This document shows positions 7,657 through 62,163 of a DNA stretch of 64,000 bases, piece after piece. The notes beneath the pieces were generated by a model. The model saw only the letters and a list, made by a program, of their open reading frames with translations. It ran no database searches and had not been told where the DNA came from. Every line of letters starts with the position of its first letter. Positions within the stretch are counted from its first letter, which is position 1. A program made the translations under genes and the position numbers. The DNA comes from Halichondria panicea (lineage: Eukaryota; Porifera; Demospongiae; Suberitida; Halichondriidae). The stretch is taken from positions 1,061,001 to 1,125,000 of the forward strand of contig NC_087387.1 in NCBI RefSeq assembly GCF_963675165.1, given 5' to 3'.

Positions 7657-9828
7657 CTAAAAGATAACAACAGATCCGGCACTGCGCACATACACAAAAC
7701 CATCACTGTCCACAGCTACTCCATAAAGATCAGTGATATGACCATTACCAAATGATGTGACAAACTGACCGTCTTTAGTGAACACTGACACACGCTTGTT
7801 AGCATCGTCAGCAACATAAACAAAACCAGTGACACACACACCGCGAGGGCCATACAAATCTCCTTGTCCATTTCCTTTCTTTCCAATCGAGCGAATAAAC
7901 CGACCATCCATAGTGAGCATTTGAACACGATGATTATAACAGTCAATGACATACATCATTTGTTCATTGTCCACTGCAACATCCTCTGGTTCGTTAAAAT
8001 GTCCATTACCAGTTCCGTATGAACCAATCTGCTTGACTGGCTCCAACTCTGTCGTCAACACTTGGACTCTGCGATTGTTCTTATCGCACACAAACACTTG
8101 ATCACCAGCGACTGCTATCCCTCGAGGGTAGTAGAGTTCCTTTGGACCATTTCCTTCTGTCCCAAACCTCTTCAGCAGATCTCCTCTTTTGTTGAACTTG
8201 TACACACAGTGTTTGTTGTTGTCACAGAAATAGATGTTGTCCTCCTTGTCTACTGCCACACCAGAGATACCGACAAACCCATGCTTTGATTTGCTGATAC
8301 TTTGAATTTGTTCTCCTTTTTTGTCAAACACCAAAACATCACCAAGAAAGTCAGTTACAATCAGTTCTTCTGATGAGTTGAATGCCATATACACAGGGAT
8401 GTTGATTCCTTTTATCTGCTTCACTGGTTTGTCCAGCTTGGTGGGGGGTATTTTTACGAACACAGAGAAGGGGCTTCCTGGTATGGGCTGGTCGTCCACT
8501 GAGATCAGGAGGTGGTGTCGACCACGTACCCTAGGGGTGTACTCAACGCTGTACACTCCACCCATCAAAGGCACTGCTTGCAATTGTTGGGTCGATTGAT
8601 CAACTAGCGATTTCAGTACTGCTTGTGGTTTGCCTTGTTTTGAACTGATATAGACATTCAGACTTGCACATTTGTCAACTTCAGCTGTTTTGATACCGTC
8701 TCCTTTCACAATCGGCTTTCCTTCACACACAATAACATTGTTCTCACACAACTTCTTGAGATCCTCACAAACAAACACTTCAATTCCAAAATCATCTTTC
8801 TCCACTGGATCAGGATTGGCTGCTTCCTTCCCTCGCTTCACCACCTCGGCATCGATTCGACTCACCACCTGCTCTTGCATCGTAATCAGTTCTTCATCAC
8901 TTGCATTCTCCAGCGTACGCTCTACAAAGTCAATCAAACTCTGAGCAGTGCCCAGGGACAGGTCCAGACCCTTCTCTTGAACTGTCAGCTTCTCCATCTT
9001 TGAATCAGCCAAAGCAGAAGATTCTCGTAAAACACGGATCTTGCATTGATCGAGAATATCGTGTAGCTCCTGAAACTTGGTATTGACTTGTCTCTCTATC
9101 AGTTCTTTCTGGGCCTGGATATTCTGTTTGGTTCCTTTCACTTGATTCACAGCGGTGCTCAGATCAGGCAGTAGGTTCTTGAGTGGGGAGAGGTGCTCCG
9201 TCAGCTTTTTGCGAGTTGTGGGGGCGGCTTTCTTTACAAATTCGTAATTGTGTCCAGCGTGTTCAATAACGATACAGTCTCGACAGATGAGCTTGTTGCA
9301 ATCAAAACAGAAAATCTTTTTTGGCTCCTCATGATCCTCGCATTTTGGGGGTGGTGGGTTTTCGAATGTTAGTTCTTTGACTCCGCCCTGTTTGAGCTCT
9401 TCCAGAGTGGAGACGATATGTGTAGCAAACATTTTCATACGTTGATGAGATTCTACACATTTTTCACACATAAACTGGACACACTGTCGGCAGAATGCAG
9501 TGGCCTTTCCCCCAGGGCACATTTCACAGGTTGTCTCCAACTTGCCGTGGGCTTTCTCCATCCTCGAGTGGAGTGCTTTCATCCGGTTGATGAAGAACGC
9601 AGTGGTCAGTCTGTCTGGGTTGTTGTCTGGCAATAGAGTGGGCTCACGACAGTCGGGGCAGGGGAACGGCTGGTTGGGTGGGTAGCGACTGGAGAGTGTG
9701 AGGATGCATTGCTTGCAGTAGTAGTGACAACAAGGGAGCAGCTTTGGCTCCTGGTAGCGGTCATGACAGATGCCACAGGTCACCTCTTGCTCGAGATCAG
9801 CAACAACTGGATCAGGTCCTTCGGCCAT
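7657..9828 (-). CDS. TRIM-NHL protein, copy 2 (723 aa)
   Basis: A single open exon encodes a RING finger (C18-C60), B-box 1 (C101-H137), B-box 2 (C163-H193), a coiled coil (about 205-340), a filamin/ABP280-type domain ending FSVFVKIPP (about 355-465) and six NHL blades (about 475-723). This order is that of TRIM2/TRIM3/TRIM71 proteins, which act as ubiquitin E3 ligases and, in some members, RNA binders. The RING zinc ligands are all present, so E3 activity is plausible. Blade loop residues after the conserved Asp are FLG, NNK, KNN, CYN, DAN and AGS. The filamin segment is the 'KPIVKGDGIKTAEVDKC' type shared with copy 5. A 5' UTR intron lies at 9842-10029. TRIM-NHL class is certain; ligand unknown. 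Confidence 0.95.
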   Translation of the reverse strand: MAEGPDPVVADLEQEVTCGICHDRYQEPKLLPCCHYYCKQCILTLSSRYPPNQPFPCPDCREPTLLPDNNPDRLTTAFFINRMKALHSRMEKAHGKLETTCEMCPGGKATAFCRQCVQFMCEKCVESHQRMKMFATHIVSTLEELKQGGVKELTFENPPPPKCEDHEEPKKIFCFDCNKLICRDCIVIEHAGHNYEFVKKAAPTTRKKLTEHLSPLKNLLPDLSTAVNQVKGTKQNIQAQKELIERQVNTKFQELHDILDQCKIRVLRESSALADSKMEKLTVQEKGLDLSLGTAQSLIDFVERTLENASDEELITMQEQVVSRIDAEVVKRGKEAANPDPVEKDDFGIEVFVCEDLKKLCENNVIVCEGKPIVKGDGIKTAEVDKCASLNVYISSKQGKPQAVLKSLVDQSTQQLQAVPLMGGVYSVEYTPRVRGRHHLLISVDDQPIPGSPFSVFVKIPPTKLDKPVKQIKGINIPVYMAFNSSEELIVTDFLGDVLVFDKKGEQIQSISKSKHGFVGISGVAVDKEDNIYFCDNNKHCVYKFNKRGDLLKRFGTEGNGPKELYYPRGIAVAGDQVFVCDKNNRRVQVLTTELEPVKQIGSYGTGNGHFNEPEDVAVDNEQMMYVIDCYNHRVQMLTMDGRFIRSIGKKGNGQGDLYGPRGVCVTGFVYVADDANKRVSVFTKDGQFVTSFGNGHITDLYGVAVDSDGFVYVRSAGSVVIF

Positions 9829-10463: not shown

Positions 10464-15705
<5,242 letters not shown>

Positions 15706-16400: not shown

Positions 16401-18608
16401 CTAAAATATAACAACAGATCCATAACTGCACACATAAACAAAACCATCACTGTCCACAGCTACTCCAGCAACTCTATAAAGATTAGTGATATGAGCATTA
16501 CCAAATGATGTGACAAACTGACCGTCTTTAGTGAACACTGACACACGCTTGTTACCATCCTCAAAAACATAAACAAAACCAGTGACACACACACCACAAG
16601 GGGAAGACAGTTCTCCTTGTCCATTTCCTTTCTTTCCAATCGAGCGAATAAACCGACCATCCATAGTGAGCACTTGAACACGATGATTATAACAGTCAGT
16701 GACATACATCATTTGTTCATTGTCCACTGCAACATCCTCTGGTCCGTTAAAATGCTCATTACCAGTTCCGTATGAACCAATCTGCTTGACTGGCTCCAGC
16801 TCTGTCGTCAACACTTGGACTCTGTGATTACTCTGATCGCACACAAACACTTGATCACCAGCGACTGCTATCCCTCGAGGGGAGTTGAGTTCCTTTGGAC
16901 CACTTCCAATCGTCCCAAACCTCTTCAGCAGATCTCCTCTTTTGTTGAACTTGTACACACAGTGTTTGCTCCAGTCAGAGACATAGATGTTGTCCTCCTT
17001 GTCTACTGCCACGCCAGAGATACCGCCAAACCCGTGCTTTGATTTGCTGATGCTTCGAATTTGTTTTCCTTTCTTGTCAAACACCAAAACATCACCCTCA
17101 AAGTCAGTTACAATCAGTTCTTCTGACGAATTGAATGCCATATACTCAGGGATGTTGATTCCTCTCATCACCCTCACAGGTTTGTCCAGCTTGGTGGGGG
17201 GTATTTTGACGAACACAGAGAAGGGGCTTCCTGGGATGGGCTGGTCGTCTTCTGAGATCAGGAGGTGGTGTCGACCACGTACCCTAGGGGTGTACTCAAC
17301 ACTGTACACTCCACCCCTCACAGGCACTGCTTGTAGCTGTTGAGATGATTCTTCAACTAGCGATTTTAGAGCCACTTGTATTGTAGGATGCTTTAATTGT
17401 GTATTACATTCCACAAGAATCGAAAAATTGTTAGGTTTATCGATTTCAGCAGTTCTAGCTCCATCTCCTTCCACAGTGCACTTTGCTGGATCCACTTTAC
17501 CATCATACACTCTCACATTGTTCTCACACAACTTCTTGAGATCCTCACAAACAAACACTTCGACTCCAAAATCATCTTTCTCCACTGGATCAGGATTGGC
17601 TGCTTCCTTCCCTCGCTTCAACACCTCGGCATCGATTCGACTCACCACCTGCTCTTGCATCGTAATCAGTTCTTCATCACTTGCATTCTCCAGCGTACGG
17701 TCTACAAAGTCAATCAAACTCTGAGCAGTGCCCAGAGACAGGTCCAGACCCTTCTCTTGAACTGTCAGCTTCTCCATCTTTGAATCAGCCAAAGCAAAAG
17801 ATTCTCGTAAAACACGGACCTTGCATCGATTGAGAATATCGTGTAGCTCCTGGAACTTGGCATTCACTTGTCTCTTTGTCAGTTCTTTCTGGGCCTGGAT
17901 CTTCTGTTTAGTTCCTTTCACTTGATTCACAGCGGTGCTCAGATCAGGCAGTAGGTTCTTGAGTGGGGAGAGGTGCTCCGTCAGTTTTTTGCGAGTTGCG
18001 GGGGCGGCTTTCTTTACAAATTCGTAATTGTGTCCAGCGTGTTCAATAACGATACAGTCTCGACAGATGAGCTTGTTGCAATCGAAACAGAAAATCTTTT
18101 TTGGCTCTTCGTGATCTTCACATTTTGGGGGTGGTGGGTTTTCGAATGTTAGTTCTTTGACTCCACCCTGTTTGAGCTCGTCCAGAGTGGAGACGATATG
18201 TGTAGCAAACACTTTCATACGTTGATGAGGTTCCACACATTTTTCACAGATGAAATTGACACACTGTCGGCAGAATGCAGTGGCCTTTCCCCCAGAGCAC
18301 ATTTCACAAGTGGTCTCCAACTTGCCATGGGCTTTCTCCATCCTCGAGTGGAGTGCTTTCATCCGGTTGATAAAGAACGCAGTGGTCAGTCTGTCTGGGT
18401 TGTTGTCTGGCAATAGAGTGGGCTCACGACAGTCGGGGCAGGGGAACGGCTGGTTGGGTCGGTAGCGACTGGAGAGTGTGAGGATGCATTGCTTGCAGTA
18501 GTAGTGACAACAAGGGAGCAGCTTTGGCTCCTGGTAGCGGTCATGACAGATGCCACAGGTCACTTCTTGCTCGAGATCAGCAACAACTGGATCAGGTCCT
18601 TCGGCCAT
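16401..18608 (-). CDS. TRIM-NHL protein, copy 3 (735 aa)
   Basis: Complete RING, two B-boxes, coiled coil, filamin domain and six NHL blades, all key Cys/His present. It is the longest copy because blade 6 carries a short duplication (LYRVAGVAVDS instead of LYGVAVDS) and the filamin domain is the long type (KVDPAKCTVEGDGARTAEID). NHL loop residues are FEG, WSK, QSN, CYN, DGN and YGS. Its filamin and blade-4 sequences closely match copies 9 and 4 respectively, which points to segment exchange. Predicted role: RING E3 ligase with a substrate- or RNA-binding propeller. A 5' UTR intron lies at 18622-18831. Confidence 0.95.
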   Translation of the reverse strand: MAEGPDPVVADLEQEVTCGICHDRYQEPKLLPCCHYYCKQCILTLSSRYRPNQPFPCPDCREPTLLPDNNPDRLTTAFFINRMKALHSRMEKAHGKLETTCEMCSGGKATAFCRQCVNFICEKCVEPHQRMKVFATHIVSTLDELKQGGVKELTFENPPPPKCEDHEEPKKIFCFDCNKLICRDCIVIEHAGHNYEFVKKAAPATRKKLTEHLSPLKNLLPDLSTAVNQVKGTKQKIQAQKELTKRQVNAKFQELHDILNRCKVRVLRESFALADSKMEKLTVQEKGLDLSLGTAQSLIDFVDRTLENASDEELITMQEQVVSRIDAEVLKRGKEAANPDPVEKDDFGVEVFVCEDLKKLCENNVRVYDGKVDPAKCTVEGDGARTAEIDKPNNFSILVECNTQLKHPTIQVALKSLVEESSQQLQAVPVRGGVYSVEYTPRVRGRHHLLISEDDQPIPGSPFSVFVKIPPTKLDKPVRVMRGINIPEYMAFNSSEELIVTDFEGDVLVFDKKGKQIRSISKSKHGFGGISGVAVDKEDNIYVSDWSKHCVYKFNKRGDLLKRFGTIGSGPKELNSPRGIAVAGDQVFVCDQSNHRVQVLTTELEPVKQIGSYGTGNEHFNGPEDVAVDNEQMMYVTDCYNHRVQVLTMDGRFIRSIGKKGNGQGELSSPCGVCVTGFVYVFEDGNKRVSVFTKDGQFVTSFGNAHITNLYRVAGVAVDSDGFVYVCSYGSVVIF

Positions 18609-19292
18609 CGTTAGTTAAGATCTGGGGAATGCATTTGTACAACATTTATAAAAGCATGAAACTATATTCTAATATAAAAAATTAAATAGCAACTTCGCTA
18701 GAAATTGAGTATACAAGAATGTTGAATCTGTGAATAATATTTTGCACTAAGTGATCAATTAGGTCAAGCTAAGCTAGACCTCTGCAGCTAGTTGAAAAAA
18801 CGGGTCCCTGAAAAAACTTACCTACTATTTATAAGAACTTCCTAGATCCTTTAATTTCAACAATTACACAAGCCTTTGTTTTGCATGTACCTTGTACTGG
18901 TACATGCTACTCCCATTACACAATGTTATAAATCTGACCAGATACGCCCACTTTTTTGTTTCAACACTGGCCCACACTTTCTTCAATATGAAAGTACATG
19001 TACATGTATGTACAAAATTTCTATGGTAGCAACATTGATATCTCCCTGAGCACTGGGCATGAGATGCCTTGATCCCAGGCCACACTGAAGATGGAGGCCT
19101 TGTAGGAGGCTAGGCTATTAAATAGCTGTCTTGGTATCTTTCAATTTAAAATTATAATTATCAGCGTACTAGGTACACAAATATTGAGGAATGCATAATT
19201 ATAAGTATGTGTTCAATACATGTACATGTATATAACTGGTAAAAATGTTTGCCAAGTTTATAAGTCGTTGAACAAACTAATGTTCGATGTGT
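18609..19292. other. TRIM copy 3 upstream region
   Basis: It holds the 5' UTR intron (18622-18831) and AT-rich spacer. 'gcatgtaccttgtactggtacatgc' near 18880-18905 is a short palindrome also found upstream of copies 4, 5, 8 and 9 and could be a shared regulatory site. No gene is seen. Confidence 0.5.
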
Positions 19293-24447
<5,155 letters not shown>

Positions 24448-27485: not shown

Positions 27486-29684
27486 CTAAAATATAACAAC
27501 AGATCCTAGACTGCGCACATAAACAAAACCATCACTGTCCACAGCTACTCCATAAGGAAAAATGATATGACCATTACCAAATGATGTGACAAACTGACCG
27601 TCTTTAGTGAACACTGACACACGATTGTTATCATAATCAGCAACATAAACAAAACCAGTGACACACACACCATGAGGGTTAGACAGATCTCCTTGTCCAT
27701 TTCCTTTCTTTCCAATCGAGCGAATAAACCGACCATCCATAGTGAGCACTTGAACACGATGATTATAACAGTCAGTGACATACATCATTTGTTCATTGTC
27801 CACTGCGACATCCTCTGGTCCGTTAAAATGCTCATTACCAGTTCCGTATGAACCAATCTGCTTGACTGGCTCCAGCTCTGTCGTCAACACTTGGACTCTG
27901 TGGTTGTTCTGATCGCACACAAACACTTGATCACCAGCGACTGCTATCCCTCGAGGCCAGTTGAGTTCCTTTGGACCAATTCCCCTTGTCCCAAACCTCT
28001 TCAGTAGATCTTCTCTTTTGTTGAACTTGTACACACAACTTTCGCCGTTGTCACAGACATATATGTTGTCCTCCTTGTCTACTGCCACACCAGAGATATT
28101 GCTAAACCCATGCTTTGATTTGCTGATGCTTCGAATTCGTTCTCCTTTCTTGTCCAACACCAAAACATCACTGTCTCGATCAGTTACAATCAGTTCTTCT
28201 GATGAGTTGAATGCCATATACCGAGGGTTGTTGATTCCTTTTATCACTCTTACTGGTTTGTCCAGCTTCGTAGGGGGTATTTTGACGAACACAGAGAAGG
28301 GGCTTCCTGGGATGGGCTGGTTGTCCACTGAGATCAGGAGGTGGTGTCGACCACGTACCCTAGGGGTGTACTCAACACTGTACACTCCACCCCTCACAGG
28401 CACTGCTTGCAATTGCTGAGATGATTCATCAACTAGCGATTTTAGAGCCACTTGTATTGTATGATGCTTAAATTGTGTATTACATTCCACAAGAATCGAA
28501 AAATTGTTAAGTGTACTAATTTCAGCAGTTCTAGCTCCATTTCCTTCGACAGTGAACTTGGTTGGATCCACTTTTCCTTCATACACAAAAACGTTGTTCT
28601 CACACAACTTCTTGAGATCCTCAGAAACAAACCCTTCGACTTCAAAATCATCTTTCTCTACTGGATCAAGATTGGCTGCTTCCTTCCCTCGCTTCACCAC
28701 CTCGGCATCGATTCGACTCACCACCTGCGATTGCATTGTAATCAGTTCTTCATCACTTGCATTCTCCAGTGTACACTCTACAAAGGCAATCAAACTCTGA
28801 GCAGTGCCCAGGGACAGGTCCAGACCCTTCTCTTGAACCGTCAGCTTCTCCATCTTTGAATCAGCTAAAACAGAAGATTTTCGTAAAACACGGACCTTGC
28901 ATTGATCGAGAATATCGTGTAGCTCCTGGAACTTGGCATTCACTTGTCTCTCTGTCAGCTCTTTCTGGGCCTGTATCTTCTGTTTAGTTCCTTTCACTTG
29001 ATTCACAGCGGTGCTCAGATGAGGCAGTAGGTTCTTGAGTGGGGAGAGGTGCTCTGTCAGCTTTTTGCGAGTTGCGGGGGCGGCTTTCTTTACAAATTCG
29101 TAATTGTGTCCAGCATGTTCAATAACGATACAGTCTCGACAGATGAGCTTGTTGCAATCAAAACAGAAAATCTTTTTCAGTTCCTCGTGATCTTCACATT
29201 TTGGGGGTGGTGGGTTTTCGAATGTTAGTTCTTTGACTCCACCCTGTTTGAGCTCGTCCAGAGTGGAGACGATATGTGTAGTAAACATTTTCATACGCTG
29301 ATGAGGTTCCACACATTTTTCACACATAAACTGGACACACTGTCGGCAGAATGCAGTGGCCTTTCCCCCAGGGCACATTTCACAGGTGGCCTCCAACTTG
29401 CCGTGGGCTTTCTCCATCCTCGAGTGGAGTGCTTTCATCCGGTTGATGAAGAACGCAGTGGGCAGTCTGTCTGGGTTGTTGTCTGGCAATAGAGTGGGCT
29501 CACGACAGTCGGGGCAGGGGAACGGCTGGTTGGGTCGGTAGCGACTGGAGAGTGTGAGGATGCATTGCTTGCAGTAGTAGTGACAACAAGGGAGCAGCTT
29601 TGGCTCCTGGTAGCGGTCATGACAGATGCCACAGGTCACTTCTTGCTCGAGATCAGCAACAACTGGATCAGGTCCTTCGGCCAT
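27486..29684 (-). CDS. TRIM-NHL protein, copy 4 (732 aa)
   Basis: All domains are complete: RING (C18-C60), B-box 1, B-box 2, coiled coil, filamin domain and six NHL blades. Filamin segment and blades 1-3 are almost identical to copy 6 (loop residues RDS, NGE, QNN; PKELNWPRG), while blade 4 is the copy 3 version (GTGNEHFNGPEDVAV, CYN). Blades 5-6 have their own residues (YDN, LGS). This mosaic is good evidence for gene conversion or unequal exchange inside the coding region. Predicted cytoplasmic E3 ligase of the TRIM2/3/71 class. A 5' UTR intron lies at 29698-29894. Confidence 0.95.
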   Translation of the reverse strand: MAEGPDPVVADLEQEVTCGICHDRYQEPKLLPCCHYYCKQCILTLSSRYRPNQPFPCPDCREPTLLPDNNPDRLPTAFFINRMKALHSRMEKAHGKLEATCEMCPGGKATAFCRQCVQFMCEKCVEPHQRMKMFTTHIVSTLDELKQGGVKELTFENPPPPKCEDHEELKKIFCFDCNKLICRDCIVIEHAGHNYEFVKKAAPATRKKLTEHLSPLKNLLPHLSTAVNQVKGTKQKIQAQKELTERQVNAKFQELHDILDQCKVRVLRKSSVLADSKMEKLTVQEKGLDLSLGTAQSLIAFVECTLENASDEELITMQSQVVSRIDAEVVKRGKEAANLDPVEKDDFEVEGFVSEDLKKLCENNVFVYEGKVDPTKFTVEGNGARTAEISTLNNFSILVECNTQFKHHTIQVALKSLVDESSQQLQAVPVRGGVYSVEYTPRVRGRHHLLISVDNQPIPGSPFSVFVKIPPTKLDKPVRVIKGINNPRYMAFNSSEELIVTDRDSDVLVLDKKGERIRSISKSKHGFSNISGVAVDKEDNIYVCDNGESCVYKFNKREDLLKRFGTRGIGPKELNWPRGIAVAGDQVFVCDQNNHRVQVLTTELEPVKQIGSYGTGNEHFNGPEDVAVDNEQMMYVTDCYNHRVQVLTMDGRFIRSIGKKGNGQGDLSNPHGVCVTGFVYVADYDNNRVSVFTKDGQFVTSFGNGHIIFPYGVAVDSDGFVYVRSLGSVVIF

Positions 29685-30406
29685 CGTTAGTTAAGATCTG
29701 GGGAATGCATTTGTACAACATTTATAAAAGCATGAAACTATTCTAATATAAAAATTAAATAGCAACTTCGCTAGAAATTGAGTATACAAGAATGTTGAAT
29801 CTGTGAATAATAGTTTGCACTAAGTGATCAATTAGGTCAAGCTAAGCTAGACCTCTGCAGCTAGTTGAAAAAACGGGTACCAGAAAAAACTTACCTACTA
29901 TTTATAAGAACTTCCTAGATCCTTTAATTTCAACAATTACACAAGCCTTTGTTTTGCATGTACCTTGTACTGGTACATGCTACGCCCATTATACAATGTT
30001 ATAAATCTGACCAGATACCCCCACTTTTTTGTTTCAACACTGGCCCACACTTTCTTCAATATGAAAGTACATGTACATGTATGTACAACAATTCTATGGT
30101 AGCAACATCGATATCTCCCTGAGCACTGGGCATGAAATGCCTTGATCCCAGGCCACACTGAATGGAGGCCTTATAGGAGGCTAGGGATGCTTCTATTAAA
30201 TAGTGAATGGAGGCCTTATAGGAGGCTAGGGATGCTTCTATTAAATAGCTGTCTTGGTATCTTTCAATTAATTATCAGCGTACTAGGTACACAAATATTG
30301 AGGAATGCATAATTATAAGTATGTGTTCAATACATGTACATGTATATAACTGGTAAAAATGTTTGCCAAGTTTATAAGTCGTTGAACAAACTAATGTTCG
30401 ATGTGT
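29685..30406. other. TRIM copy 4 upstream region with a 45-bp tandem duplication
   Basis: It holds the 5' UTR intron (29698-29894), the shared 'tgtaccttgtactggtaca' palindrome near 29960, and a perfect tandem duplication of 45 bp (30159-30203 and 30204-30248, starting tgaatggaggccttatagga). Other units have this 45-mer once. No gene is seen. Confidence 0.65.
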
Positions 30407-38751: not shown

Positions 38752-39282
38752 CGTTAGTTCAGATCTGGGGAATGCATTTGTACATTTATTTTATAAAAGT
38801 ATGAAACTATTCGCAACTAGAAATTGAGTACAAGAATGTTCAATAATTGTGCTAAAGTGATCATTAGGTCAAGCTAAAGCTACACCTCTGCAGCTAGTTC
38901 AAAAAACGTACTTACTCGGAAGTTCCTAGATACTAGATCCTTCAATTTCAGAAGCACAGTAGTTGTTGTTTTGCATGTACCGTGTACTGGTACATGCTAC
39001 GCCCATTACACAATGTTATAAATCTGATCAGATATGCCCCACTTTTTTGTTTCAACACCCACACTTTTCTTCAAGGAAGCAGTGAAGTGAAGAAGTGAGT
39101 GAATAAAATACAAATGCATGACCACTGTCCTTGAAATAATGTGCATAGTAGATCTTTATGATATAAAAGTGTTCAAGATACTCACAACCCATTTTCCTTC
39201 CCCTTCCATCACAATTCCTGTGACTTGTAGCTGGTACTATTTGCACTAGTAATATTGCAGAGACTGTATGGTACCGACTGCT
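38752..39282. other. TRIM copy 5 upstream region
   Basis: It holds the 5' UTR intron (38765-38915) and the 'gtaccgtgtactggtac' palindrome near 38978. TRIM-unit homology fades at about 39080. No gene is recognised. Confidence 0.5.
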
Positions 39283-41290: not shown

Positions 41291-43492
41291 CTAAAAGATA
41301 ACAACAGATCCGGCACTGCACACATACACAAAACCATCATTGTCCACAGCTACTCCATAAAGATGGGAAGTGATATGACCATTACCAAATGATGTGACAA
41401 ACTGACCGTCTTTAGTAAACACTGACACACGATTGTTATCAAAATCAGCAACATAAACAAAGCTAGTAACACACACACCATGAGGGCGAGACAGATCTCC
41501 TTGTCCACTTCCCTTCTTTCCAATCGAGCGAATAAACCGACCACCCATAGTGAGCACTTGAACACGATGATTACTATAGTCAGTGACATACACCATTTGT
41601 TCATTGTCCACTGCAATATCCTCTGGTCCGTTAAAATGTCCATTACCAGTTCCCTTTGAACCAATCTGCTTGACCAGCCGCTCTGTCGTTAATACTTGGA
41701 CTCTGTGGTTGTTCTGATCGCACACAAACACTTGATCACCAGCGACTGCTATCCCTCGAGGCCAGTTGAGTTCCTTTGGACCAATTCCCCTTGTCCCAAA
41801 CCTCTTCAGTAGATCTTCTCTTTTGTTGAACTTGTACACACAACTTTCGCCGTTGTCACAGACATATATGTTGTCCTCCTTGTCTACTGCCACACCAGAG
41901 ATATTGCTAAACCCATGCTTTGATTTGCTGATGCTTCGAATTCGTTCTCCTTTCTTGTCCAACACCAAAACATCACTGTCTCGATCAGTTACAATCAGTT
42001 CTTCTGATGAGTTGAATGCCATATACCGAGGGTTGTTGATTCCTCTTATCACTCTTACTGGTTTGTCCAGCTTCGTAGGGGGTATTTTGACAAACACAGA
42101 GAAGGGGCTTCCTGGGATGGGCTGATTGTCCACTGAGATCAGGAGGTGGTGTCGACCACGTATCCTAGGGGTGTACTCAACACTGTACACTCCATCCCTC
42201 ACAGGCACTGCTTGCAATTGCTGAGATGATTCTTCAACTAGCGATTTTAGAGCCACTTGTATTGTATGATGCTTAAATTGTGTATTACATTCCACAAGAA
42301 TCGAAAAATTGTTAAGTGTACTAATTTCAGCAGTTCTAGCTCCATTTCCTTCGACAGTGAACTTTGTTGGATCCACTTTTCCTTCATACACAAAAACGTT
42401 GTTCTCACACAACTTCTTGAGATCCTCAGAAACAAACCCTTCGACTTCAAAATCATCTTTCTCTACTGGATCAAGATTGGCTGCTTCCTTCCCTCGCTTC
42501 ACCACCTCGGCATCGATTCGACTCACCACCTGCGATTGCATTGTAATCAGTTCTTCATCACTTGCATTCTCCAGTGTACGCTCTACAAAGGCAATCAAAC
42601 TCTGAGCAGTGCCCAGGGACAGGTCCAGACCCTTCTCTTGAACCGTCAGCTTCTCCATCTTTGAATCAGCTAAAACAGAAGATTTTCGTAAAACACGGAC
42701 CTTGCATTGATCGAGAATATCGTGTAGCTCCTGGAACTTGGCATTCACTTGTCTCTCTGTCAGCTCTTTCTGGGCCTGGATCTTCTGTTTAGTTCCTTTC
42801 ACTTGATTCACAGCGGTGCTCAGATCAGGCAGTAGGTTCTTGAGTGGGGAGAGGTGCTCTGTCAGCTTTTTGCGAGTTGCGGGGGCGGCTTTCTTTACAA
42901 ATTCGTAATTGTGTCCAGCGTGTTCAATAACGATACAGTCTCGACAGATGAGCTTGTTGCAATCGAAACAGAAAATCTTTTTTAGTTCCTCGTGATCTTC
43001 ACATTTTGGGGGTGGTGGGTTTTCGAATGTTAGTTCTTTCACTCCGCCCTGTTTGAGCTGTTCCAGAGTAGAGACGATATGTGTAGCAAACACTTTCATA
43101 CGTTGATGAGGTCTTACACAATCCTCACAGATGAAATTGACACACTGTCGGCAGAATGCAGTGGCTTTTCCCCCAGAGCACATTTCACAAGTAGTCTCCA
43201 ACTTGCCGTGGGCTTTCTCCATCCTCGAGTGGAGTGCTTTCATCCGGTTGATGAAGAACGCAGTGGTCAGTCTGTCTGGGTTGTTGTCTGGCAATAGAGT
43301 GGGCTCACGACAGTCGGGGCAGGGGAACGGCTGGTTGGGTCGGTAGCGACTGGAGAGTGTGAGGATGCATTGTTTGCAGTAGTAGTGACAACAAGGGAGC
43401 AGCTTTGGCTTCTGGTAGCGGTCATGACAGATACCACAGGTCACCTCTTGCTCGAGATCAGCAACAACTGGATCAGGTCCTTCGGCCATCAT
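41291..43492 (-). CDS. TRIM-NHL protein, copy 6 (733 aa)
   Basis: All domains are complete; the N-terminus begins with two consecutive Met codons (MMAEGPDP), the second aligning with other copies. Filamin domain and NHL blades 1-3 are almost identical to copy 4 (RDS, NGE, QNN). From TTERLVKQ onward it is distinct: two residues are lost in TTELEPVKQ, blade 4 has YSN, blade 5 FDN, blade 6 AGS, and HITSHLYG is one residue longer. RING and B-box ligands are intact. Predicted RING E3 ligase. A 5' UTR intron lies at 43506-43681. Confidence 0.95.
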   Translation of the reverse strand: MMAEGPDPVVADLEQEVTCGICHDRYQKPKLLPCCHYYCKQCILTLSSRYRPNQPFPCPDCREPTLLPDNNPDRLTTAFFINRMKALHSRMEKAHGKLETTCEMCSGGKATAFCRQCVNFICEDCVRPHQRMKVFATHIVSTLEQLKQGGVKELTFENPPPPKCEDHEELKKIFCFDCNKLICRDCIVIEHAGHNYEFVKKAAPATRKKLTEHLSPLKNLLPDLSTAVNQVKGTKQKIQAQKELTERQVNAKFQELHDILDQCKVRVLRKSSVLADSKMEKLTVQEKGLDLSLGTAQSLIAFVERTLENASDEELITMQSQVVSRIDAEVVKRGKEAANLDPVEKDDFEVEGFVSEDLKKLCENNVFVYEGKVDPTKFTVEGNGARTAEISTLNNFSILVECNTQFKHHTIQVALKSLVEESSQQLQAVPVRDGVYSVEYTPRIRGRHHLLISVDNQPIPGSPFSVFVKIPPTKLDKPVRVIRGINNPRYMAFNSSEELIVTDRDSDVLVLDKKGERIRSISKSKHGFSNISGVAVDKEDNIYVCDNGESCVYKFNKREDLLKRFGTRGIGPKELNWPRGIAVAGDQVFVCDQNNHRVQVLTTERLVKQIGSKGTGNGHFNGPEDIAVDNEQMVYVTDYSNHRVQVLTMGGRFIRSIGKKGSGQGDLSRPHGVCVTSFVYVADFDNNRVSVFTKDGQFVTSFGNGHITSHLYGVAVDNDGFVYVCSAGSVVIF

Positions 43493-45418: not shown

Positions 45419-47515
45419 CTACTCCATAAGAGAAGTGATATGACCATTACCAAATGATGTGACAAACTGACCATCTTTAGTGAACACTGACACACGCTTG
45501 TTAGTATACTCAGCAACATAAAGAAAACTACTGACACACACACCATAAGGGTCAGACAGATCTCCTTGTCCATTTCCTTTCTTTCGAATAAACCGACCAT
45601 CCATAGTGAGCACTTGAACACGATGATTACCATAGTCAGTGACATACACCATTTGTTCATTGTCCACCGCAACGTCCTCTGGTAGGTCATTACCAGTTTC
45701 CATTGAATCAATCTGCTTGACTGGCCCCAGCTCTGTCGTCAACACTTGGACTCCGTAATTCCCTCGATTGCACACAAACACTTCATCACCAGCGACTGCT
45801 ATCCCTTGAGGGTAGTAGAGTTTTTTTAGAACACTTTCCCTCGTCCCAAACCATTTTAGCAGATATCCTCTTTTGTACACGCAGTGTTTGTACCTGTCAC
45901 AGACATAGATGTTGTCTTCCTTGTCTACTGCCACACGAGAGATACTGCCAAACCAATGTATTGATTTGCTGATGCTTTGAATTTGTTTTCCTTTCTTGTC
46001 AAACATCAAAATATCACCGTTCCAGTCAGTTACAATCAGTTCTTCTGATGAGTTGAATGCCATATACCGAGGGTTGTTGATTCCTCTTATCACCCTCACA
46101 GGTTTGTCCAGCTTGGTGGGGGGTATTTTGACGAACACAGAGAATGGGCTTCCTGAAATAGGCTGGTCGTCCACTGAGATCAGGAGGTGGTGTCGACCAC
46201 GTACCCTAGGGGTGTACTCAACACTGTACACTCCACCCCTCATAGGCACTGCTTGTAGCTGTTGAGATGATTGATCAGCTAGCAATTTTAAAGTTGCTTT
46301 AGCTTTTGAAAATTGTCGTGGATGGTGTATATTGATTGAAAAGCAAGCAGGTTTATCGATTTCAGCATTTTTAACTACATCTCCTTCCACAGTGCACTTC
46401 GTTGGATCCACTGTACCGTCATACACAATAACGTTGTTCTTACACAACTCCTTGAGACCCTTATAAACAAACACCTCAACTCCAAAATCATCTTTCTCCA
46501 CTGGATCAGAATTGGCTGCTTCCTTCACTACCTCGGCATCGATTCGACTCACCACCTGCTCTTGCATCGTAATCAGTTCTTCATCACTTGCATTCTCCAG
46601 TGTACGCTCTACAAAGTCAATTAAACTCTGAGCAGTGCCCAGGGACAGGTCCAGACCTTTCTCTTGAACCGTCAGCTTCTCCATCTTTGAATTAGCCAAA
46701 GCAGAAGATTCTCGTAAAACACGGACTTTGTATTGATCGAGAATATCGTGTAGCTCCTGAAACTTGGCATTCACTTGTCTCTCTGTCAGTTCTTTCTGGG
46801 CCTGGATCTTCTGTTTAGTTCCTTTCACTTGATTCACAGCGGTGCTCAGATCAGGCAGTAGGTTCTTGAGTGGGGAGAGGTGCTCCGTCAGCTTTTTGCG
46901 AGTTTCGGGGGCAGCTTTCTTAACTAACTCTGACTTGTGGTCACAATGATCGAACACAACACAGTCTCGACAGATGAGCTTATTGCAATCGAAACAAAAA
47001 ATCTTCTTTGGCTCCTCATGATCCTCGCATTTTGGGGGTAGTGGGCTTTCGAATGTTAGATCTTTCACTCCGCCCTGTTTGAGCTCGTCCAGAGTGGAGA
47101 CGATATGTGTAGCAAACACTTTCATATGCTGATGAGATCTTACACAATCCTCACAAATGAACTGGACACACTGTCGGTAGAATGCAGTGGCCTTTCCCCC
47201 AGAGCACATTTCACAGGTGGTCTCCAACTTGCCGTGGGCTTTCTCCATTCTCGAGTGGAGTGCTTTCATCCGGTTGATGACGAATGAAGTGGGCAGTCTG
47301 TCTAGGTTGTTGCCTGGCAATAGAGTGGGCTCACGACAGTCGGGGCAGGGGAACGGCTGGTTGGGTCGGTAGCGACTGGAGAGTGTGAAGATGCATTGCT
47401 TGCAGTAGTAGTGACAACAAGGGAGCAGCTTTGGCTCCTGGTAGCGGTCATGGCAGATGCCACAGGTCACCTCTTGCTCGAGATCAGCAACAATTGGATC
47501 AGGTCCTTCGGCCAT
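45419..47515 (-). pseudogene. TRIM-NHL copy 7, degenerating
   Basis: The MAEGPDPIVAD start at 47515 aligns with all copies; an open extension of 34 codons upstream lies in the 5' UTR intron region (47538-47649) and is not counted. RING is intact, but B-box 1 has lost a zinc ligand (FYRQC for FCRQC), and B-box 2 carries a divergent block (VVFDHCDHKSELV). In the propeller, KFN and SIG residues are deleted, the blade 3-4 linker is shortened (METGNDLPED), and a one-base deletion at about 45430 gives HITSLME-stop, losing the last ~20 residues that close blade 6. A 4-base insertion 16-20 bases further would restore frame. Probably a decaying gene. Confidence 0.85.
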
Positions 47516-47940
47516 CGTTAGAAATTGTTTCTCAGATCTGAAGAATGCAATTGTGTAGAATGTTGAATATGGCATAAACTTTGTATAATTAGCTATATAC
47601 ATGCTATATACATTCACTATACCTCTGCAGCTACTGTATAAAGTCTTACCTACAATCAGAAAATGGGTTAAGGCATATGGTAAAAGTAAGCAATGAACTG
47701 AAGTAGCAGTAGGCTGCTCTAAGTTGTAAAATTAATGTTATTCATAGCGTTTCACCCAGCTATAGTGTTTTAATGAGATTCATTGCATTTTCTAGTACAA
47801 ATTAATGTTTGCGATTTTACTCAGAAATTAATACTCGCGAAAATATGTAACTGAGATACACCCACATTTCTTCACAGTCATACCATATCTATGGTCATAC
47901 AATATTTGCAGTTAGGCTATAATAATAGCTAGTCCAGTCA
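47516..47940. other. TRIM copy 7 upstream region
   Basis: It holds the 5' UTR intron (47538-47649) and AT-rich sequence only distantly like the other upstream regions. No gene is seen. Confidence 0.45.
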
Positions 47941-51134: not shown

Positions 51135-53294
51135 CTAAAATATAACAACAGATTCATGACTGCGCACATACACAAAACCATCACTGTCCACAGCTACTCC
51201 ATAAAGATCAGTGATATGACCATTACCAAATGATGTGACAAACTGACCGTCTTTAGTGAACACTGACACACGCCTGTTACCATCGTCAATAACATAAACA
51301 AAACCAGTGACACATACACCAAAAGGGCGAGACAGATCTCCTTGTCCATTTCCTTTCTTTCCAATCGAGCGAATAAACCGACCATCCATAGTGAGCACTT
51401 GAACACGATTATTATAATAGTCAATGACATACACCATTTGTTCATTGTCCACTGCAACATCCTGTGGGAGGTTAAAATGTCCATTACCAGATCCCTTTGA
51501 ACCAATCTGCTTGACTGGCTCCAGCTCTGTCGTCAACACTTGGACTCTGTGATTAGCTCGATCGCACACAAACACTTGATCACCAGCGACTGCTATCCCT
51601 CGAGGCCAGTTGAGTTCCTTTGGACCACTTCCCTTCGTCCCAAACCTCTTCAGCAGATCTCCTCTTTTGTTGAACTTGTACACACAGTGTTTGCCGCTAT
51701 CACAGACATAGATGTTGTCCTTCTTGTCTACTGCCACACCAGAGATACCGCCAAACTCATGCTTTGATTTGCTGATGCTTCGAATTCGTTCTCCTTTCTT
51801 GTCAAACACAAAAACATCACCGCTATAGTCAGTTACAATCAGTTCTTCTGATGAGTTGAATACCATATATTGAGGGTTGTTGATTCCTCTTATCACCCTC
51901 ACTGGTTTGTCCAGCTTGGTAGGGGGTATTTTGACGAACACAGAGAAGGGGCTTCCTGGGATAGGCTGATCGTCCACTGAGATCAGGAGGTGGTGTTGAC
52001 CACGTACCCTAGGGGTGTACTCAACGCTGTACACTCCACCCCTCACAGGCACTGCTTGCAATTGTTGGGTCGATTGATCAACTAGCGATTTCAGTACTGC
52101 TTGTGGTTTGCCTTGTTTTGAACTGATATAGACATTCAGATTTGCACATTTGTCAACTTCAGCCATCTTCACACCATCACCCCTCACAGAAGGATAAAAT
52201 ACAACATTGTTCTCACACAACTTCTTGAGATCCTCACAAACAAACACTTCGACTCCAAAATCATCTTTCTCCACTGGATCAGGATTGGCTGCTTCCTTCC
52301 CTCGCTTCACCACCTCGGCATCGATTCGACTCACCACCTGCTCTTGCATCGTAATCAGTTCTTCATCACTTGCATTCTCCAGTGTACGCTCTACAAAGTC
52401 AATCAAACTCTGAGCAGTGCCCAGGGACAGGTCCAGACCCTTCTCTTGAGCCGCCAGCTTCTCCATCTTTGAATCAGCCAAAGCAGAAGATTCTCGTAAA
52501 ACACGGACCTTGCATCGATCGAGAATATCGTGTAGCTCCTGGAACTTGGCATTCACTTGTCTCTCTGTCAGTTCTTTCTGGGCCTGAATCTTCTGTTTAA
52601 TTCCTTTCACTTGATTCACAGCTGTGCTCAGATCAGGCAGTAGGTTCTTGAGTGGGGAGAGGTGCTCCGTCAGCTTTTTGCGAGTTGCGGGGACGGCTTT
52701 TTTTACAAATTCGTAATTGTGTCCAGCGTGTTCAATAACGATACAGTCTCGACAGATGAGCTTGTTGCAATCGAAGCAGAAAATCTTTTTTAGTTCCTCG
52801 TGATCCTCGCATTTTGGGGGTGATGGGCTTTCGAATGTTAGTTCTTTCACTCCGCCCTGTTTGAGCTCATCCAGAGTGGAGATGGCATGTCCGGCAAATA
52901 CTTTCATTTTATGAGACTTCACACAATCGTCACAGATAAAACTGACACACTGTCGGCAGAATGCAGTGGCCTTTCCCCCAGAGCACATTTCACAGGTGGT
53001 CTCCAACTTTCCGTGGGCTTTCTCCATCCTCGAGTGGAGTGCTTTCATCCGGTTGATGAAGAACGCAGTGGGTAGTCTGTCAGGGTTGTTGTCTGGCAAT
53101 AGAGTGGGCTCACGACAGTCGGGGCAGGGGAACGACTGGTTGGGTTGGAAGCGACTGGAGAGTGTGAGGATACATTGCTTGCAGTAGTAGTGACAACAAG
53201 GGAGCAGCTTTGGCTCCTGGTAGCGGTCATGACAGATGCCACAGGTCACTTCTTGCTCGAGATCAGCAACAACTGGATCAGGTCCTTCGGCCAT
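51135..53294 (-). CDS. TRIM-NHL protein, copy 8 (719 aa)
   Basis: All domains are present; it is the shortest intact copy because the filamin segment is compact (NNVVFYPSVRGDGVKMAEVD). B-box 1 differs from the others (CDDCVKSHKMKVFAGHAIS) but keeps its Cys/His ligands. The next filamin strand (NVYISSKQGKPQAVLKSLVD) is identical to copy 2. NHL loop residues are YSG, SGK, RAN, YYN, DGN and HES. RING is intact. Predicted RING E3 ligase. A 5' UTR intron lies at 53308-53509. Confidence 0.95.
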   Translation of the reverse strand: MAEGPDPVVADLEQEVTCGICHDRYQEPKLLPCCHYYCKQCILTLSSRFQPNQSFPCPDCREPTLLPDNNPDRLPTAFFINRMKALHSRMEKAHGKLETTCEMCSGGKATAFCRQCVSFICDDCVKSHKMKVFAGHAISTLDELKQGGVKELTFESPSPPKCEDHEELKKIFCFDCNKLICRDCIVIEHAGHNYEFVKKAVPATRKKLTEHLSPLKNLLPDLSTAVNQVKGIKQKIQAQKELTERQVNAKFQELHDILDRCKVRVLRESSALADSKMEKLAAQEKGLDLSLGTAQSLIDFVERTLENASDEELITMQEQVVSRIDAEVVKRGKEAANPDPVEKDDFGVEVFVCEDLKKLCENNVVFYPSVRGDGVKMAEVDKCANLNVYISSKQGKPQAVLKSLVDQSTQQLQAVPVRGGVYSVEYTPRVRGQHHLLISVDDQPIPGSPFSVFVKIPPTKLDKPVRVIRGINNPQYMVFNSSEELIVTDYSGDVFVFDKKGERIRSISKSKHEFGGISGVAVDKKDNIYVCDSGKHCVYKFNKRGDLLKRFGTKGSGPKELNWPRGIAVAGDQVFVCDRANHRVQVLTTELEPVKQIGSKGSGNGHFNLPQDVAVDNEQMVYVIDYYNNRVQVLTMDGRFIRSIGKKGNGQGDLSRPFGVCVTGFVYVIDDGNRRVSVFTKDGQFVTSFGNGHITDLYGVAVDSDGFVYVRSHESVVIF

Positions 53295-53986
53295 CGTTAG
53301 TTAAGATCTGGGGAATGCATTTGTACAACATTTATAAAAGCATGAAACTATTCTATAAATATAAAATTAAATACTGTAACTTCGCTAGAAATTGAGTATA
53401 CAAGAATGTTGAATCTGTGAATAATAGTTTTGCACTAAGTGATCAATTAGGTCAAGCTAAGCTAGACCTCTGCAGCTAGTTGAAAAAACGGGTACCCGAA
53501 AAAACTTACCTACTATTTATAAAAATTTCCTAGATCCTTTAATTTCAACAATTACAAGCCTTTGTTTTGCATGTACCTTGTACTGGTACATGCTACGCCC
53601 ATTACACAATGTTATAAATCTGACCAGATACGCCCACTTTTTTGTTTCAACACTGGCCCACACTTTCTTCAATATGAAAGTACATGTATGTACAACAATT
53701 CTACACAACTTGGTAGTAACATCTATATCTCCCTGAGCACTGGGCATGAGATGCCTTGATCCCAAGCCACACTGAATGGAGGCCTTGTAGGAGGCTAGGG
53801 ATGCTTCTATTAAAAGCTGTCTTGGTATCTTTCAATTTAAAATTATAATTATCAGCGTACTAGGTACACAAATAATATTGAGGAATGCATAATTATAAGT
53901 ATGTGTTCAATACATGTACATGTATATAACTGGTAAAAATGTTTGCCAAGTTTATAAGTCGTTGAACAAAATAATGTTCGATGTGT
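53295..53986. other. TRIM copy 8 upstream region
   Basis: It holds the 5' UTR intron (53308-53509) and the 'tgtaccttgtactggtaca' palindrome near 53572. The right part (about 53695-53885) is closer to the region upstream of copy 1 than to its neighbours. No gene is seen. Confidence 0.5.
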
Positions 53987-59964: not shown

Positions 59965-62163
59965 CTAAAATATAACAACAGATTCTTGACTGCGCACATA
60001 AACAAAACCATCACTGTCCACAGCTACTCCATAAAGATCAGTGATATGACCATTACCAAATGATGTGACAAACTGATCGTCTTTAGTGAACACTAACACA
60101 CGATTGTTACTATCCTCAGCAACATAAACAAAACCAGTGACACACACACCATACGGGTCAGACAGATCTCCTTGTCCACTTCCTTTCTTTCCAATCGAGT
60201 GAATAAACCGACCATCTATAGTGAGCACTTGAACACGATGATTACCATAGTCAGTGACATACATCATTTGTTCATTGTCCACTGCAACATCCTCTGGGTG
60301 GTTAAAATGTCTATTACCAGTTCCCTTTGAACCAATCTGCTTGACTGGCTCCAGCTCTGTCGTCAACACTTGGACTCTGTGATTGTCTTGATCGCACACA
60401 AACACTTGATCACCAGCGACTGCTATCCCTCGAGGCCAGTTGAGTTCCTTTGGACCACTTCCCTTCGTCCCAAACCTCTTCAGTAGATCTCCTCTTTTGT
60501 TGAACTTGTACACACAGTGTTTGCTGCAGTCACAGACATAGATGTTGTCCTCCTTGTCTACTGCCATACCATAGATATTGTCAACCCCATGCTTTGATTT
60601 GCTGAAGATTTGAATTTGTTTTCCTTTCTTGTCAAACACCAAAACATCACCACTACCGTCAGTTACAATCAGTTCTTCTAACGAATTAAATGCCATATAC
60701 CGAGGGTTATTGATTCCTGTTATCACCTTCACTGGTTTGTCCAGCTTGGTGGGGGGTATTTTAATGAACATAGAGAAGGGGCTTCCTGGGATGGGCTGAT
60801 CATCCACTGAGATCAGGAGGTGGTGTCGACCACGTATCCTAGGGGTGTACTCAACGCTGTACACTCCACCCCTCACAGGCACTGCTTGTAGCTGTTGAGA
60901 GGATTGATCAACTAGCGATTTTAGAGCCACTTGTATTGTATGATGCTTTAATTGTGTATTACATTCCACAAGAATCGAAAAATTGTTAGGTTTATCGATT
61001 TCAGCAGTTCTAGCTCCATCTCCTTCCACAGTGCACTTTGCTGGATCCACTTTACCATCATACACTCTCACATTGTTCTCACACAACTTCTTGAGATCCT
61101 CACAAACAAACACTTTGACTCCAAAATCATCTTTCTCCACTGGATCAGGATTGGCTGCTTCCTTCCCTCGCTTCAACACCTCGGCATCGATTCGACTCAC
61201 CACCTGATCTTGCATCGTAATCAGTTCTTCATCACTTGCATTCTCCAGTGTACGTTCTACAAAGTCAATCAAACTCTGAGCAGTGCCCAGGGACAGGTCC
61301 AGACCCTTCTTTTGAACTGTCAGCTTCTCCATCTTTGAATCAGCCAAAGCAGAAGATTCTCGTAAAACACGGACCTTGCATCGATCGAGAATATCGTGTA
61401 GCTCCTGGAACTTGGCATTCACTTGTCTCTCTGTCAGTTCTTTCTGGGCCTGGATATTCTGTTTAGTTCCTTTCACTTGATTCACAGCGGTGCTCAGATC
61501 AGGCAGTAGGTTCTTGAGTGGGGAGAGGTGCTCCGTCAGCTTTTTGCGAGTTGCGGGGGCGGCTTTCTTTACAAATTCGTAATTGTGTCCAGCGTGTTCA
61601 ATAACGATACAGTCTCGACAGATGAGCTTGTTGCAATCGAAACAGAAAATCTTTTTTGGCTCTTCGTGATCTTTGCATTTTGGGGGTGGTGGGTTTTCGA
61701 ATGTTAGTTCTTTGACTCCGCCTTGTTTGAGCTCGTCCAGAGTGGAGACGATATGTGTAGCAAACACTTTCATACGTTGATGAGGTCTTACACAATCCTC
61801 ACAGATGAAATTGACACACTGTCGGCAGAATGCAGTGGCCTTTCCCCCAGAGCACATTTCACAAGTGGTCTCCAACTTGCCATGGGCTTTCTCCATCCTC
61901 GAGTGGAGTGCTTTCATCCGGTTGATAAAGAACGCAGTGGTCAGTCTGTCTGGGTTGTTGTCTGGCAATAGAGTGGGCTCACGACAGTCGGGGCAGGGGA
62001 ACGGCTGGTTGGGTCGGTAGCGACTGGAGAGTGTGAGGATGCATTGCTTGCAGTAGTAGTGACAACAAGGGAGCAGCTTTGGCTCCTGGTAGCGGTCATG
62101 ACAGATGCCACAGGTCACTTCTTGCTCGAGATCAGCAACAACTGGATCAGGTCCTTCGGCCAT
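59965..62163 (-). CDS. TRIM-NHL protein, copy 9 (732 aa)
   Basis: This is the last TRIM copy of the array and has all domains. RING, B-boxes and filamin segment (KVDPAKCTVEGDGARTAEID, NNFSILVECNTQLKH) nearly equal copy 3. The propeller differs: loops GSG, CSK, QDN, YGN, DSN and QES. Blade 2 has NIYGMAVDKE instead of GISGVAVDKE. RING ligands are intact. Predicted RING E3 ligase. A 5' UTR intron lies at 62177-62360. Homology to other TRIM upstream regions stops at about 62478. Confidence 0.95.
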   Translation of the reverse strand: MAEGPDPVVADLEQEVTCGICHDRYQEPKLLPCCHYYCKQCILTLSSRYRPNQPFPCPDCREPTLLPDNNPDRLTTAFFINRMKALHSRMEKAHGKLETTCEMCSGGKATAFCRQCVNFICEDCVRPHQRMKVFATHIVSTLDELKQGGVKELTFENPPPPKCKDHEEPKKIFCFDCNKLICRDCIVIEHAGHNYEFVKKAAPATRKKLTEHLSPLKNLLPDLSTAVNQVKGTKQNIQAQKELTERQVNAKFQELHDILDRCKVRVLRESSALADSKMEKLTVQKKGLDLSLGTAQSLIDFVERTLENASDEELITMQDQVVSRIDAEVLKRGKEAANPDPVEKDDFGVKVFVCEDLKKLCENNVRVYDGKVDPAKCTVEGDGARTAEIDKPNNFSILVECNTQLKHHTIQVALKSLVDQSSQQLQAVPVRGGVYSVEYTPRIRGRHHLLISVDDQPIPGSPFSMFIKIPPTKLDKPVKVITGINNPRYMAFNSLEELIVTDGSGDVLVFDKKGKQIQIFSKSKHGVDNIYGMAVDKEDNIYVCDCSKHCVYKFNKRGDLLKRFGTKGSGPKELNWPRGIAVAGDQVFVCDQDNHRVQVLTTELEPVKQIGSKGTGNRHFNHPEDVAVDNEQMMYVTDYGNHRVQVLTIDGRFIHSIGKKGSGQGDLSDPYGVCVTGFVYVAEDSNNRVLVFTKDDQFVTSFGNGHITDLYGVAVDSDGFVYVRSQESVVIF

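Follow-up and report, generated by a model that had tools for sequence, protein, structure and literature searches.

Variable residues concentrate on one face of the NHL propeller across a tandem TRIM-NHL array of the sponge Halichondria panicea

The window of this study is the 64,000-nucleotide stretch from position 1,061,001 (window base 1) to 1,125,000 of contig NC_087387.1, called C11 below, in the 131.5 Mb, 39-contig assembly of the demosponge Halichondria panicea. It holds part of a tandem array of TRIM-NHL genes. Most of what is known of TRIM-NHL proteins concerns conserved RNA regulators of development. In this array, codon comparisons show that the scaffold and the RING ubiquitin-ligase (E3) module are under purifying selection and that about 24-29 residues on one face of the NHL propeller, that of the BC and DA loops, are driven to change.

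Eight long open reading frames (ORFs), all on the minus strand, lie where an earlier note, made from the letters of this DNA, had placed them. Seven of the eight encode complete intronless proteins of the order RING-B-box-B-box-coiled coil-filamin-NHL. The incomplete one, at 45419-47731, is missing its last blade and some internal parts, so that of the "eight full copies" of that note seven are intact; the blade residues it quoted agree with the translations. The TRIM-NHL features of the window are listed below, with the evidence in brackets.

7657..9834, minus strand: TRIM-NHL gene 1, intronless, intact, 725-codon frame (ORF, domain scan; in the 47-gene alignment)
16401..18614, minus strand: TRIM-NHL gene 2, intact (ORF; in the 47-gene alignment)
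27486..29690, minus strand: TRIM-NHL gene 3, intact, its loop residues of blades 1-3 common with the gene at 41291 (ORF, translations)
36568..38790, minus strand: TRIM-NHL gene 4, intact, opening a repeated three-gene cassette (ORF, flank comparison)
41291..43492, minus strand: TRIM-NHL gene 5, intact, with four copies of 99.3-99.7% nucleotide identity elsewhere in the array (ORF)
45419..47731, minus strand: TRIM-NHL copy without the last blade and parts of others, with one TAG in the aligned stretch (translation, domain scan)
51135..53300, minus strand: TRIM-NHL gene 7, intact, the reference for residue numbering, with M=1 at 53294 (ORF, Pfam, AlphaFold model)
53025..53294, minus strand: RING region of the reference gene, residues 1-90 (Pfam; pN/pS 0.16)
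51930..52229, minus strand: filamin region of the reference gene, residues 356-455, with block haplotypes across the array (Pfam, entropy)
51138..51929, minus strand: six-bladed NHL propeller of the reference gene, residues 456-719 (M2a fit and refit; structure model)
59965..62169, minus strand: TRIM-NHL gene 8, intact, its NHL domain almost the same as in L027 and L034 (ORF)
2..658, minus strand: N-terminal part of a ninth, intact gene at the left edge, the whole being L017 at C11:1059484-1061652 (ORF, genome search)

Pfam matches above cut-off were obtained for RING C3HC4, zf-B_box, Filamin and NHL in the proteins scanned, those of two intact window genes and the truncated copy; the same scans gave no SPRY/PRY (B30.2) domain, and filamin and NHL stand instead. 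The order of RING, B-box(es), filamin and NHL is that of the TRIM-NHL class VII, subfamily C. After the B-boxes, a coiled coil is suggested by long predicted helices at 195-239 and 245-308, of moderate confidence (blocks of about 46-76 in pLDDT, the predicted local distance difference test). The zinc-binding Cys and His residues of the RING are kept at 90% or more over 52 proteins, as in E3 ligases, and ligase activity is thus predicted. In the AlphaFold model (whole-protein mean pLDDT 71.7, NHL blocks 81-98) the window protein has the six-bladed NHL propeller fold; its best sequence match in the PDB is TRIM71/LIN41 (6fpt), and the fold is also close.

How far does the array extend? Searching all six frames of the genome with one array gene yielded at least 66 matches, every one on C11 and 56 of them within 0.94-1.35 Mb; scores were computed for 62 of the 333 candidates, so the match counts are lower bounds. 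The analysed set consists of 47 full-length stop-free genes (40 of the array and 7 of the window); 4 full-length genes interrupted by an internal TAG were left out, as were 15 matches of partial length, and the truncated copy at 45419 was excluded from the selection analyses. A second family has 24 full-length matches of at least 79% to gene L062 (23 on C3 and 1 on C8), 23 of them stop-free, and a third has 30 of at least 83% to L066, mostly at 5.88-6.31 Mb of C3, 28 of them stop-free. The three families together hold at least 98 full-length stop-free genes (47 + 23 + 28), and the face pattern was examined in two of them, those of C11 and L062. Several array genes are identical to database proteins of H. 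panicea labelled "TRIM71-like" or "TRIM3-like" (P0001 = L011, P0003 = L019). Four further database proteins of C11 type, P0004, P0006, P0039 and P0054, lie on other contigs and are under 90% identical to any of the 47 genes. Their divergence may reflect other haplotypes, individuals or species. Several database proteins on other contigs fall below 91% identity to all of the 47, but since the database was clustered at 90%, this says little on the repertoires of different individuals.

Variation and selection on the propeller

Which parts of the protein differ between the copies? Over the 47 paralogues, the mean site entropy is 0.08 in the RING, 0.18 in the coiled coil, 0.23 in B-box2, 0.33 in B-box1, 0.60 in filamin and 0.49 in NHL. 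On average filamin exceeds NHL in variability, but it varies as about three block haplotypes, whereas the NHL variation consists of isolated residues. The proportion of synonymous differences (pS) is about 0.075 in the RING and coiled coil, 0.21-0.31 in the B-boxes (0.31 in B-box2), 0.28 in filamin and 0.11 in NHL. The low value in the RING and coiled coil indicates that, beside constraint, recent duplication or conversion helps to keep the E3 module alike. The earlier note had described a nearly invariant N-terminal module and a constant E3 part. This holds for the RING and coiled coil by their entropy, and the RING is under purifying selection; it fails at a patch of B-box1, filamin, on which that note is silent, varies, and part of the constancy is owed to duplication or conversion.

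Two side observations in the C11 family belong here. B-box1 residues 118-143 form a variable patch within the conserved module, with a ratio of nonsynonymous to synonymous proportions (pN/pS) of 0.51. Filamin residues 365-409 exist as about three strongly diverged block haplotypes with a pS of 0.44, as if they were old alleles or imported modules.

In antiparallel four-stranded blades, the BC and DA loops belong to one face of the propeller and the AB and CD loops to the other. Strands and loops were initially assigned by hand with the NHL repeat as guide, the variable sites being already known, and later by DSSP from the AlphaFold model; the two assignments concur. With the hand-set loops, 29 of the 30 most variable NHL sites fall in BC/DA loops, against 35% expected, and none of 20000 loop permutations reached this. 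By DSSP the number is 26 of 30; three of the remaining four are at the beginning of strand A and one is within strand B. The codon model described below selected 29 sites (473, 475, 490, 491, 515, 516, 518, 533, 534, 536, 554, 563, 579, 580, 600, 609, 621, 626, 627, 656, 658, 671, 672, 674, 696, 697, 698, 713 and 714), which by DSSP comprise 14 in BC loops, 11 in DA loops, 3 second residues of strand A, which lie at that end of the propeller too, and a single residue of strand B. No AB or CD loop by DSSP contains any of the 30 most variable or the 29 selected NHL sites. The earlier expectation that the variable loops share one face was thus correct, and the variable sites are not scattered over both.

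Note that this face can be compared residue by residue with that of LIN41, for which 14 RNA-contacting residues have been reported (PMC5908797). Thirteen of the 14 contacts map to four repeat positions, and the remaining one is the residue two before the blade proline. The four register positions of a blade are those before and after the proline and the first two residues after the aspartate, which makes 24 in the sponge protein. In the first fit 22 of these 24 were selected, compared with 7 of the 240 residues elsewhere (Fisher 6e-24). The suggestion that the variable face is the RNA-binding one is therefore supported at residue level for LIN41, and by fold only for Brat; the face is not basic, as is discussed later.

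Selection was assessed by a self-written implementation of the M1a and M2a codon models on 41 non-redundant genes, either with each blade given its own tree or with one tree. The first M2a fit hardly explored the tree-scale parameter, which the refit left free. For NHL, twice the log-likelihood difference of M2a over M1a (2ΔlnL) was 489 in the first fit and 546 in the refit with blade trees, and 909 with one tree. With blade trees, the nonsynonymous to synonymous rate ratio (omega) was 5.9-7.1 on 11-15% of NHL sites. The selected sites number 29 in the first fit, 28 in the refit (515 and 516 lost, 711 gained) and 24 in the one-tree fit. Could recombination by itself create such a signal? Three null simulations without positive selection, in which recombination occurred about every 15 codons, gave 2ΔlnL of 30.0, 21.7 and 0, and recombination was rejected as the source of the NHL signal, the simulated range of 0-30 being set against the observed 489-546. 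By the same measure, the apparent positive selection in residues 1-355 (2ΔlnL 12.6) and in filamin (8.9) is not credible, because both values lie inside the range of the recombining nulls.

A tree-free count agrees with the models: pN is 0.43 at the 24 register positions, and pS is 0.09 in the codons at most 4 away. With the hand-set classes, pN/pS comes to 1.49 in the top loops, 0.44 in the loops of the other face and 0.39 in the strands; by DSSP class, pN is 0.30 in BC, 0.14 in DA, 0.03 in AB and 0.04 in CD loops. Nonsynonymous change hence exceeds synonymous change on the variable face and is below half of it on the strands and the opposite face, as the reading of the earlier note requires; neither a ratio below 1 in the loops nor pseudogene-like substitution in all domains was found.

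Is the pattern peculiar to the C11 family (set A)? Three other sets were compared: B, of 18 proteins at 65-71% identity to the nearest array gene; C, of 22 proteins at 48-50%; and D, of 12 genes of the L062 family (11 from 68-256 kb of C3 and one from 1.9 Mb). Sets B and C were rejected as further arrays of this genome, where their best matches reach 72% and 51% and are all of the C11 family; as no closer match is found here, B and C come from other genomes. Of the 30 most variable sites, 27, 28 and 28 lie on the same face in B, C and D, and register positions among the top 30 number 22 of 24 in A, 20 of 23 in B, 19 of 23 in C and 18 of 24 in D. In set D, M2a gave 2ΔlnL 162, omega 8.7 and 18 selected sites. 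In these alignments, the diversifying NHL pattern is repeated in a second array of the genome and in sets from other genomes. As a control we used the single-copy TRIM-NHL gene L001, which has no relative above 33% identity over its length in this genome. Its 68 orthologues (69 were listed and one short sequence was dropped) show no face preference: entropy is 1.22 at the 24 positions and 1.18 elsewhere, and 2 of the 24 register positions are among the top 30, where 2.7 are expected.

Duplication and module exchange in the array

A cassette of three genes recurs in the array, made up of a variable gene, a near-identical "MMAEGP" gene and a truncated copy. It is found at 36568-47731 of the window and as L037/L040/L053, L018/L042/L052 and L044/L043/L050. 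The middle gene is 99.3-99.8% identical between cassettes, and the first gene differs in NHL. Among the first genes L037, L018, L034 and the window gene at 36568 (W36568), identity is 98-100% over the 5-prime flank and roughly 300 codons from the start; filamin and NHL then fall to 75-96% in most stretches, with L037 and W36568 alike through filamin. L044, a fifth cassette first gene, is more diverged. L034 combines the cassette N-terminus with an NHL domain that hardly differs from those of L027 and the window gene at 59965 (0-2 nonsynonymous and 0-1 synonymous differences), a case of C-terminal modules being swapped between copies. Face residues are most strongly associated when no more than 3 codons apart; the association is weak up to about 25 codons and all but absent past 70. 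Of the 47 faces, 41 are distinct.

Flanks were compared in the 475 of 1081 gene pairs with an alignable 3-prime flank. In 13 pairs whose 3-prime flanks are 98-99% identical, a median of 15 of the 24 face residues differ, and the number in the most diverged pairs is 17. L009 and L015 have an identical 900-base flank, yet 12 of their face residues differ. In the pairs with 98-99% flanks the pS of NHL is also about 0.06, which indicates that the domain as a whole is older than the flank.

Possible function and rival explanations

How should this pattern be read? We consider it likely that the array is a germline-encoded repertoire of cytosolic RING ubiquitin-ligase receptors whose propeller face has been diversified by selection, probably for defence. 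Each copy would bind a different ligand with its variable face, and the RING and coiled coil would then ubiquitinate or cluster what is bound. The ligands would be mostly proteins or mixed, rather than RNA held by its backbone, and the driving force might be an arms race with pathogens or symbionts. Such a system would work like TRIM5alpha or the finTRIMs of fish, with the NHL propeller replacing B30.2. A defence role is plausible by analogy, defence being the reading given for this kind of selection signature in finTRIM (PMC2657112). A bolder version, which we hold only tentatively, is that sponges possess combinatorial germline "intracellular antibodies", in which an E3 is joined to an NHL domain with a paratope-like face of 24 positions (in each of the six blades, two flanking the proline and two of the BC loop), reshuffled between genes by recombination. 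If true, this would be a beta-propeller recognition system evolved independently of the leucine-rich repeat, immunoglobulin and B30.2 systems.

Several results weigh against a repertoire diversified by selection. Six pairs with 99-100% identical 3-prime flanks have a median of 1 face-residue difference, and the NHL domains of the four closest gene pairs are separated by 0-2 nonsynonymous changes per pair. When 23 disjoint nearest pairs are added together, the pN/pS of the whole NHL is 0.90, and it is above 1 in 7 of the 23 (the N-terminus has 0.25 over the same pairs). In most of the youngest duplicates, therefore, no change can be seen. Gene conversion also complicates site models: the recombining nulls produced as many as 3 false sites and a 2ΔlnL reaching 30. 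The register positions selected drop from 22 of 24 to 21 on refitting and to 18 under one tree, and only 13 of 24 are selected in the smaller set D. Finally, third-base C/T variation is 0.112 at face codons and 0.050 elsewhere in NHL (p=0.03), a twofold excess that selection alone does not require.

This last point raises a further question, whether a targeted mutator diversifies the face codons. We give this scarcely any credence. Bases 1-2 of many face codons are indeed saturated, several having 6-10 combinations of the first two bases (10 at residue 656), and the third-base variation is mildly raised. Yet in many of the same codons the third base is fixed, in every codon ending in a pyrimidine (NNY): C in 47 of 47 genes at 656, T in 47 of 47 at 516 and T in all 46 NNY codons at 626. 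A blind mutator would be ignorant of codon phase. Moreover pS is low (0.076) in codons within 3 of the variable ones, and the second base is A or G in 82% of the variable codons of the C11 family, as expected from selection for polar residues. The 30 variable codons of these base analyses were chosen after the variation was seen. Site- or template-directed mutagenesis was rejected as the main cause, since codon phase, the purine-rich second base and the unraised pS of the flanking codons favour selection. Nor does it seem more than very faintly probable that there is no recognition function at all, the loops being merely tolerant and the pattern a product of relaxed constraint, decay or gene conversion. 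Loops are generally tolerant of change, and the array does contain gene conversion and stop-bearing or partial copies. But relaxation gives at most pN equal to pS, far from the excess counted at the face; the AB and CD loops are conserved, the single-copy orthologues have no face bias, and the recombining nulls fall far short of the observed 2ΔlnL. This explanation is already strained by the results.

If selection has acted on the face, what is the ligand? Tyrosine makes up 13-18% of face residues and 2-3% of residues elsewhere; Trp and Arg are also enriched, as is Ser in three of the four sets, and Val, Ile and Thr are scarce. Such a composition is much like that of receptor interaction surfaces. 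An RNA-recognition repertoire, in which each propeller reads a different viral, transposon or host RNA as LIN41 and Brat do, is rather unlikely in our view. The selected positions are the repeat positions that contact RNA in LIN41, the mean charge of the complete top loops is +3.4 in the C11 family, and aromatic residues can stack on bases, as F916 of Brat illustrates (PMC13245067). However, the net charge of the 24 positions averages -0.2, +0.5, +1.7 and -0.2 in the four sets, with a range of -4 to +5, compared with +8 in LIN41, so that a shared LIN41-type grip on the RNA backbone is unlikely, though the propellers may still read bases in the manner of Brat. The conserved basic top-face contacts that mark the RNA-binding LIN41/TRIM71 subfamily are absent. 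In all four sets the lysine share is 1-2% at the face, below the 4-8% of the rest of the domain; the arginine share, however, is higher at the face, 7-15% against 4-5%. The link to RNA is one of position and not of chemistry. Recognition of something other than pathogens, such as allorecognition, compatibility with gametes or symbionts, or a diversification of developmental substrates, is a distinctly unlikely alternative, although the selection signature names no ligand and receptor genes other than TRIM-NHL are reported to be expressed in an individual-specific way in H. panicea (PMC8242945). Neither extracellular nor membrane families appeared in the Pfam scans (predictors of signal peptides or membrane segments were not run), and a cytosolic E3 would be an odd first choice for surface allorecognition.

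The reading as a repertoire of cytosolic receptors has its closest known counterpart in the finTRIM (ftr), btr and trim35/hltr families of teleosts, which are likewise large TRIM families, with a RING-B-box-coiled-coil part and hypervariable, positively selected C-terminal loops (PMC2657112, PMC3137616). In finTRIM the positive selection was found by M2a/M8, and a recombination breakpoint was reported (PMC2657112, PMC3137616). The sponge genes have the marks of such an array, a multigene family with selection in C-terminal loops that, by homology to LIN41, are putatively ligand-binding. Unlike the fish families, which carry B30.2/PRY-SPRY, the sponge family carries filamin-NHL, so that scaffold and lineage are independent. 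TRIM5alpha and TRIM21 also fuse an E3 ligase to a variable surface of ligand-binding loops, but they are few genes, vertebrate and based on B30.2, with viral capsids or antibodies as known ligands (see also PMC2657112). With TRIM71/LIN41 and animal TRIM-NHL proteins in general, the array shares the order RING-BBox-BBox-CC-filamin-NHL and the positions of the ligand-contact face (PMC5908797); the face of LIN41 is basic and binds RNA, whereas the sponge counterparts of its contacts are not basic and are among the most variable residues. The propellers of Brat and Mei-P26 likewise bind ligand on the top face (PMC9070667, PMC13245067). Hence the architecture is known (TRIM-NHL) and so is the kind (finTRIM-type arrays), and what differs is the NHL recognition domain and the sponge lineage.

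Among the papers listed from the open-licence literature, none has a title or displayed abstract that describes a diversified NHL face or a sponge TRIM-NHL array. The available part of an immune study of H. panicea mentions NHL solely in a figure abbreviation list (PMC8242945), and that of PMC3503706 treats the TRIM classes with neither such a face nor such an array. PMC11797021 contains no whole-word TRIM or NHL, and the main text of PMC12373286 contains no NHL or tripartite. The face used for RNA by LIN41 is the fastest-evolving part of an expanded sponge family. If pathogens are what it recognises, the immune use of TRIM proteins through arrays with diversified loops arose in an early-branching animal, on a scaffold unlike that of fish and primates. 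Because the face is defined residue by residue, ligands could be searched for with swapped faces on one constant scaffold.

Other sequences in the window

The remaining observations concern sequence between and beside the TRIM-NHL genes. At 63349-63999 (plus strand), an open frame runs off the right edge; it has a weak B-box-like zinc-finger match (PF22586, below cut-off) and presumably resembles the cysteine cluster of KDZ-type transposons. Near-identical minus-strand frames of 162 amino acids lie between the genes at 14355-14843, 23193-23681 and 34302-34790, in units of roughly 9-11 kb. The one that was scanned gave no Pfam match, and they are probably chance frames in recently duplicated DNA. 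Overlapping pieces of one peptide are encoded, again between the genes, at 15875-16459, 24474-25004 and 27002-27505 (minus strand), two of them directly downstream of TRIM genes; they are possibly exons of a second repeated gene. A (CT)80 microsatellite occupies 39296-39455.

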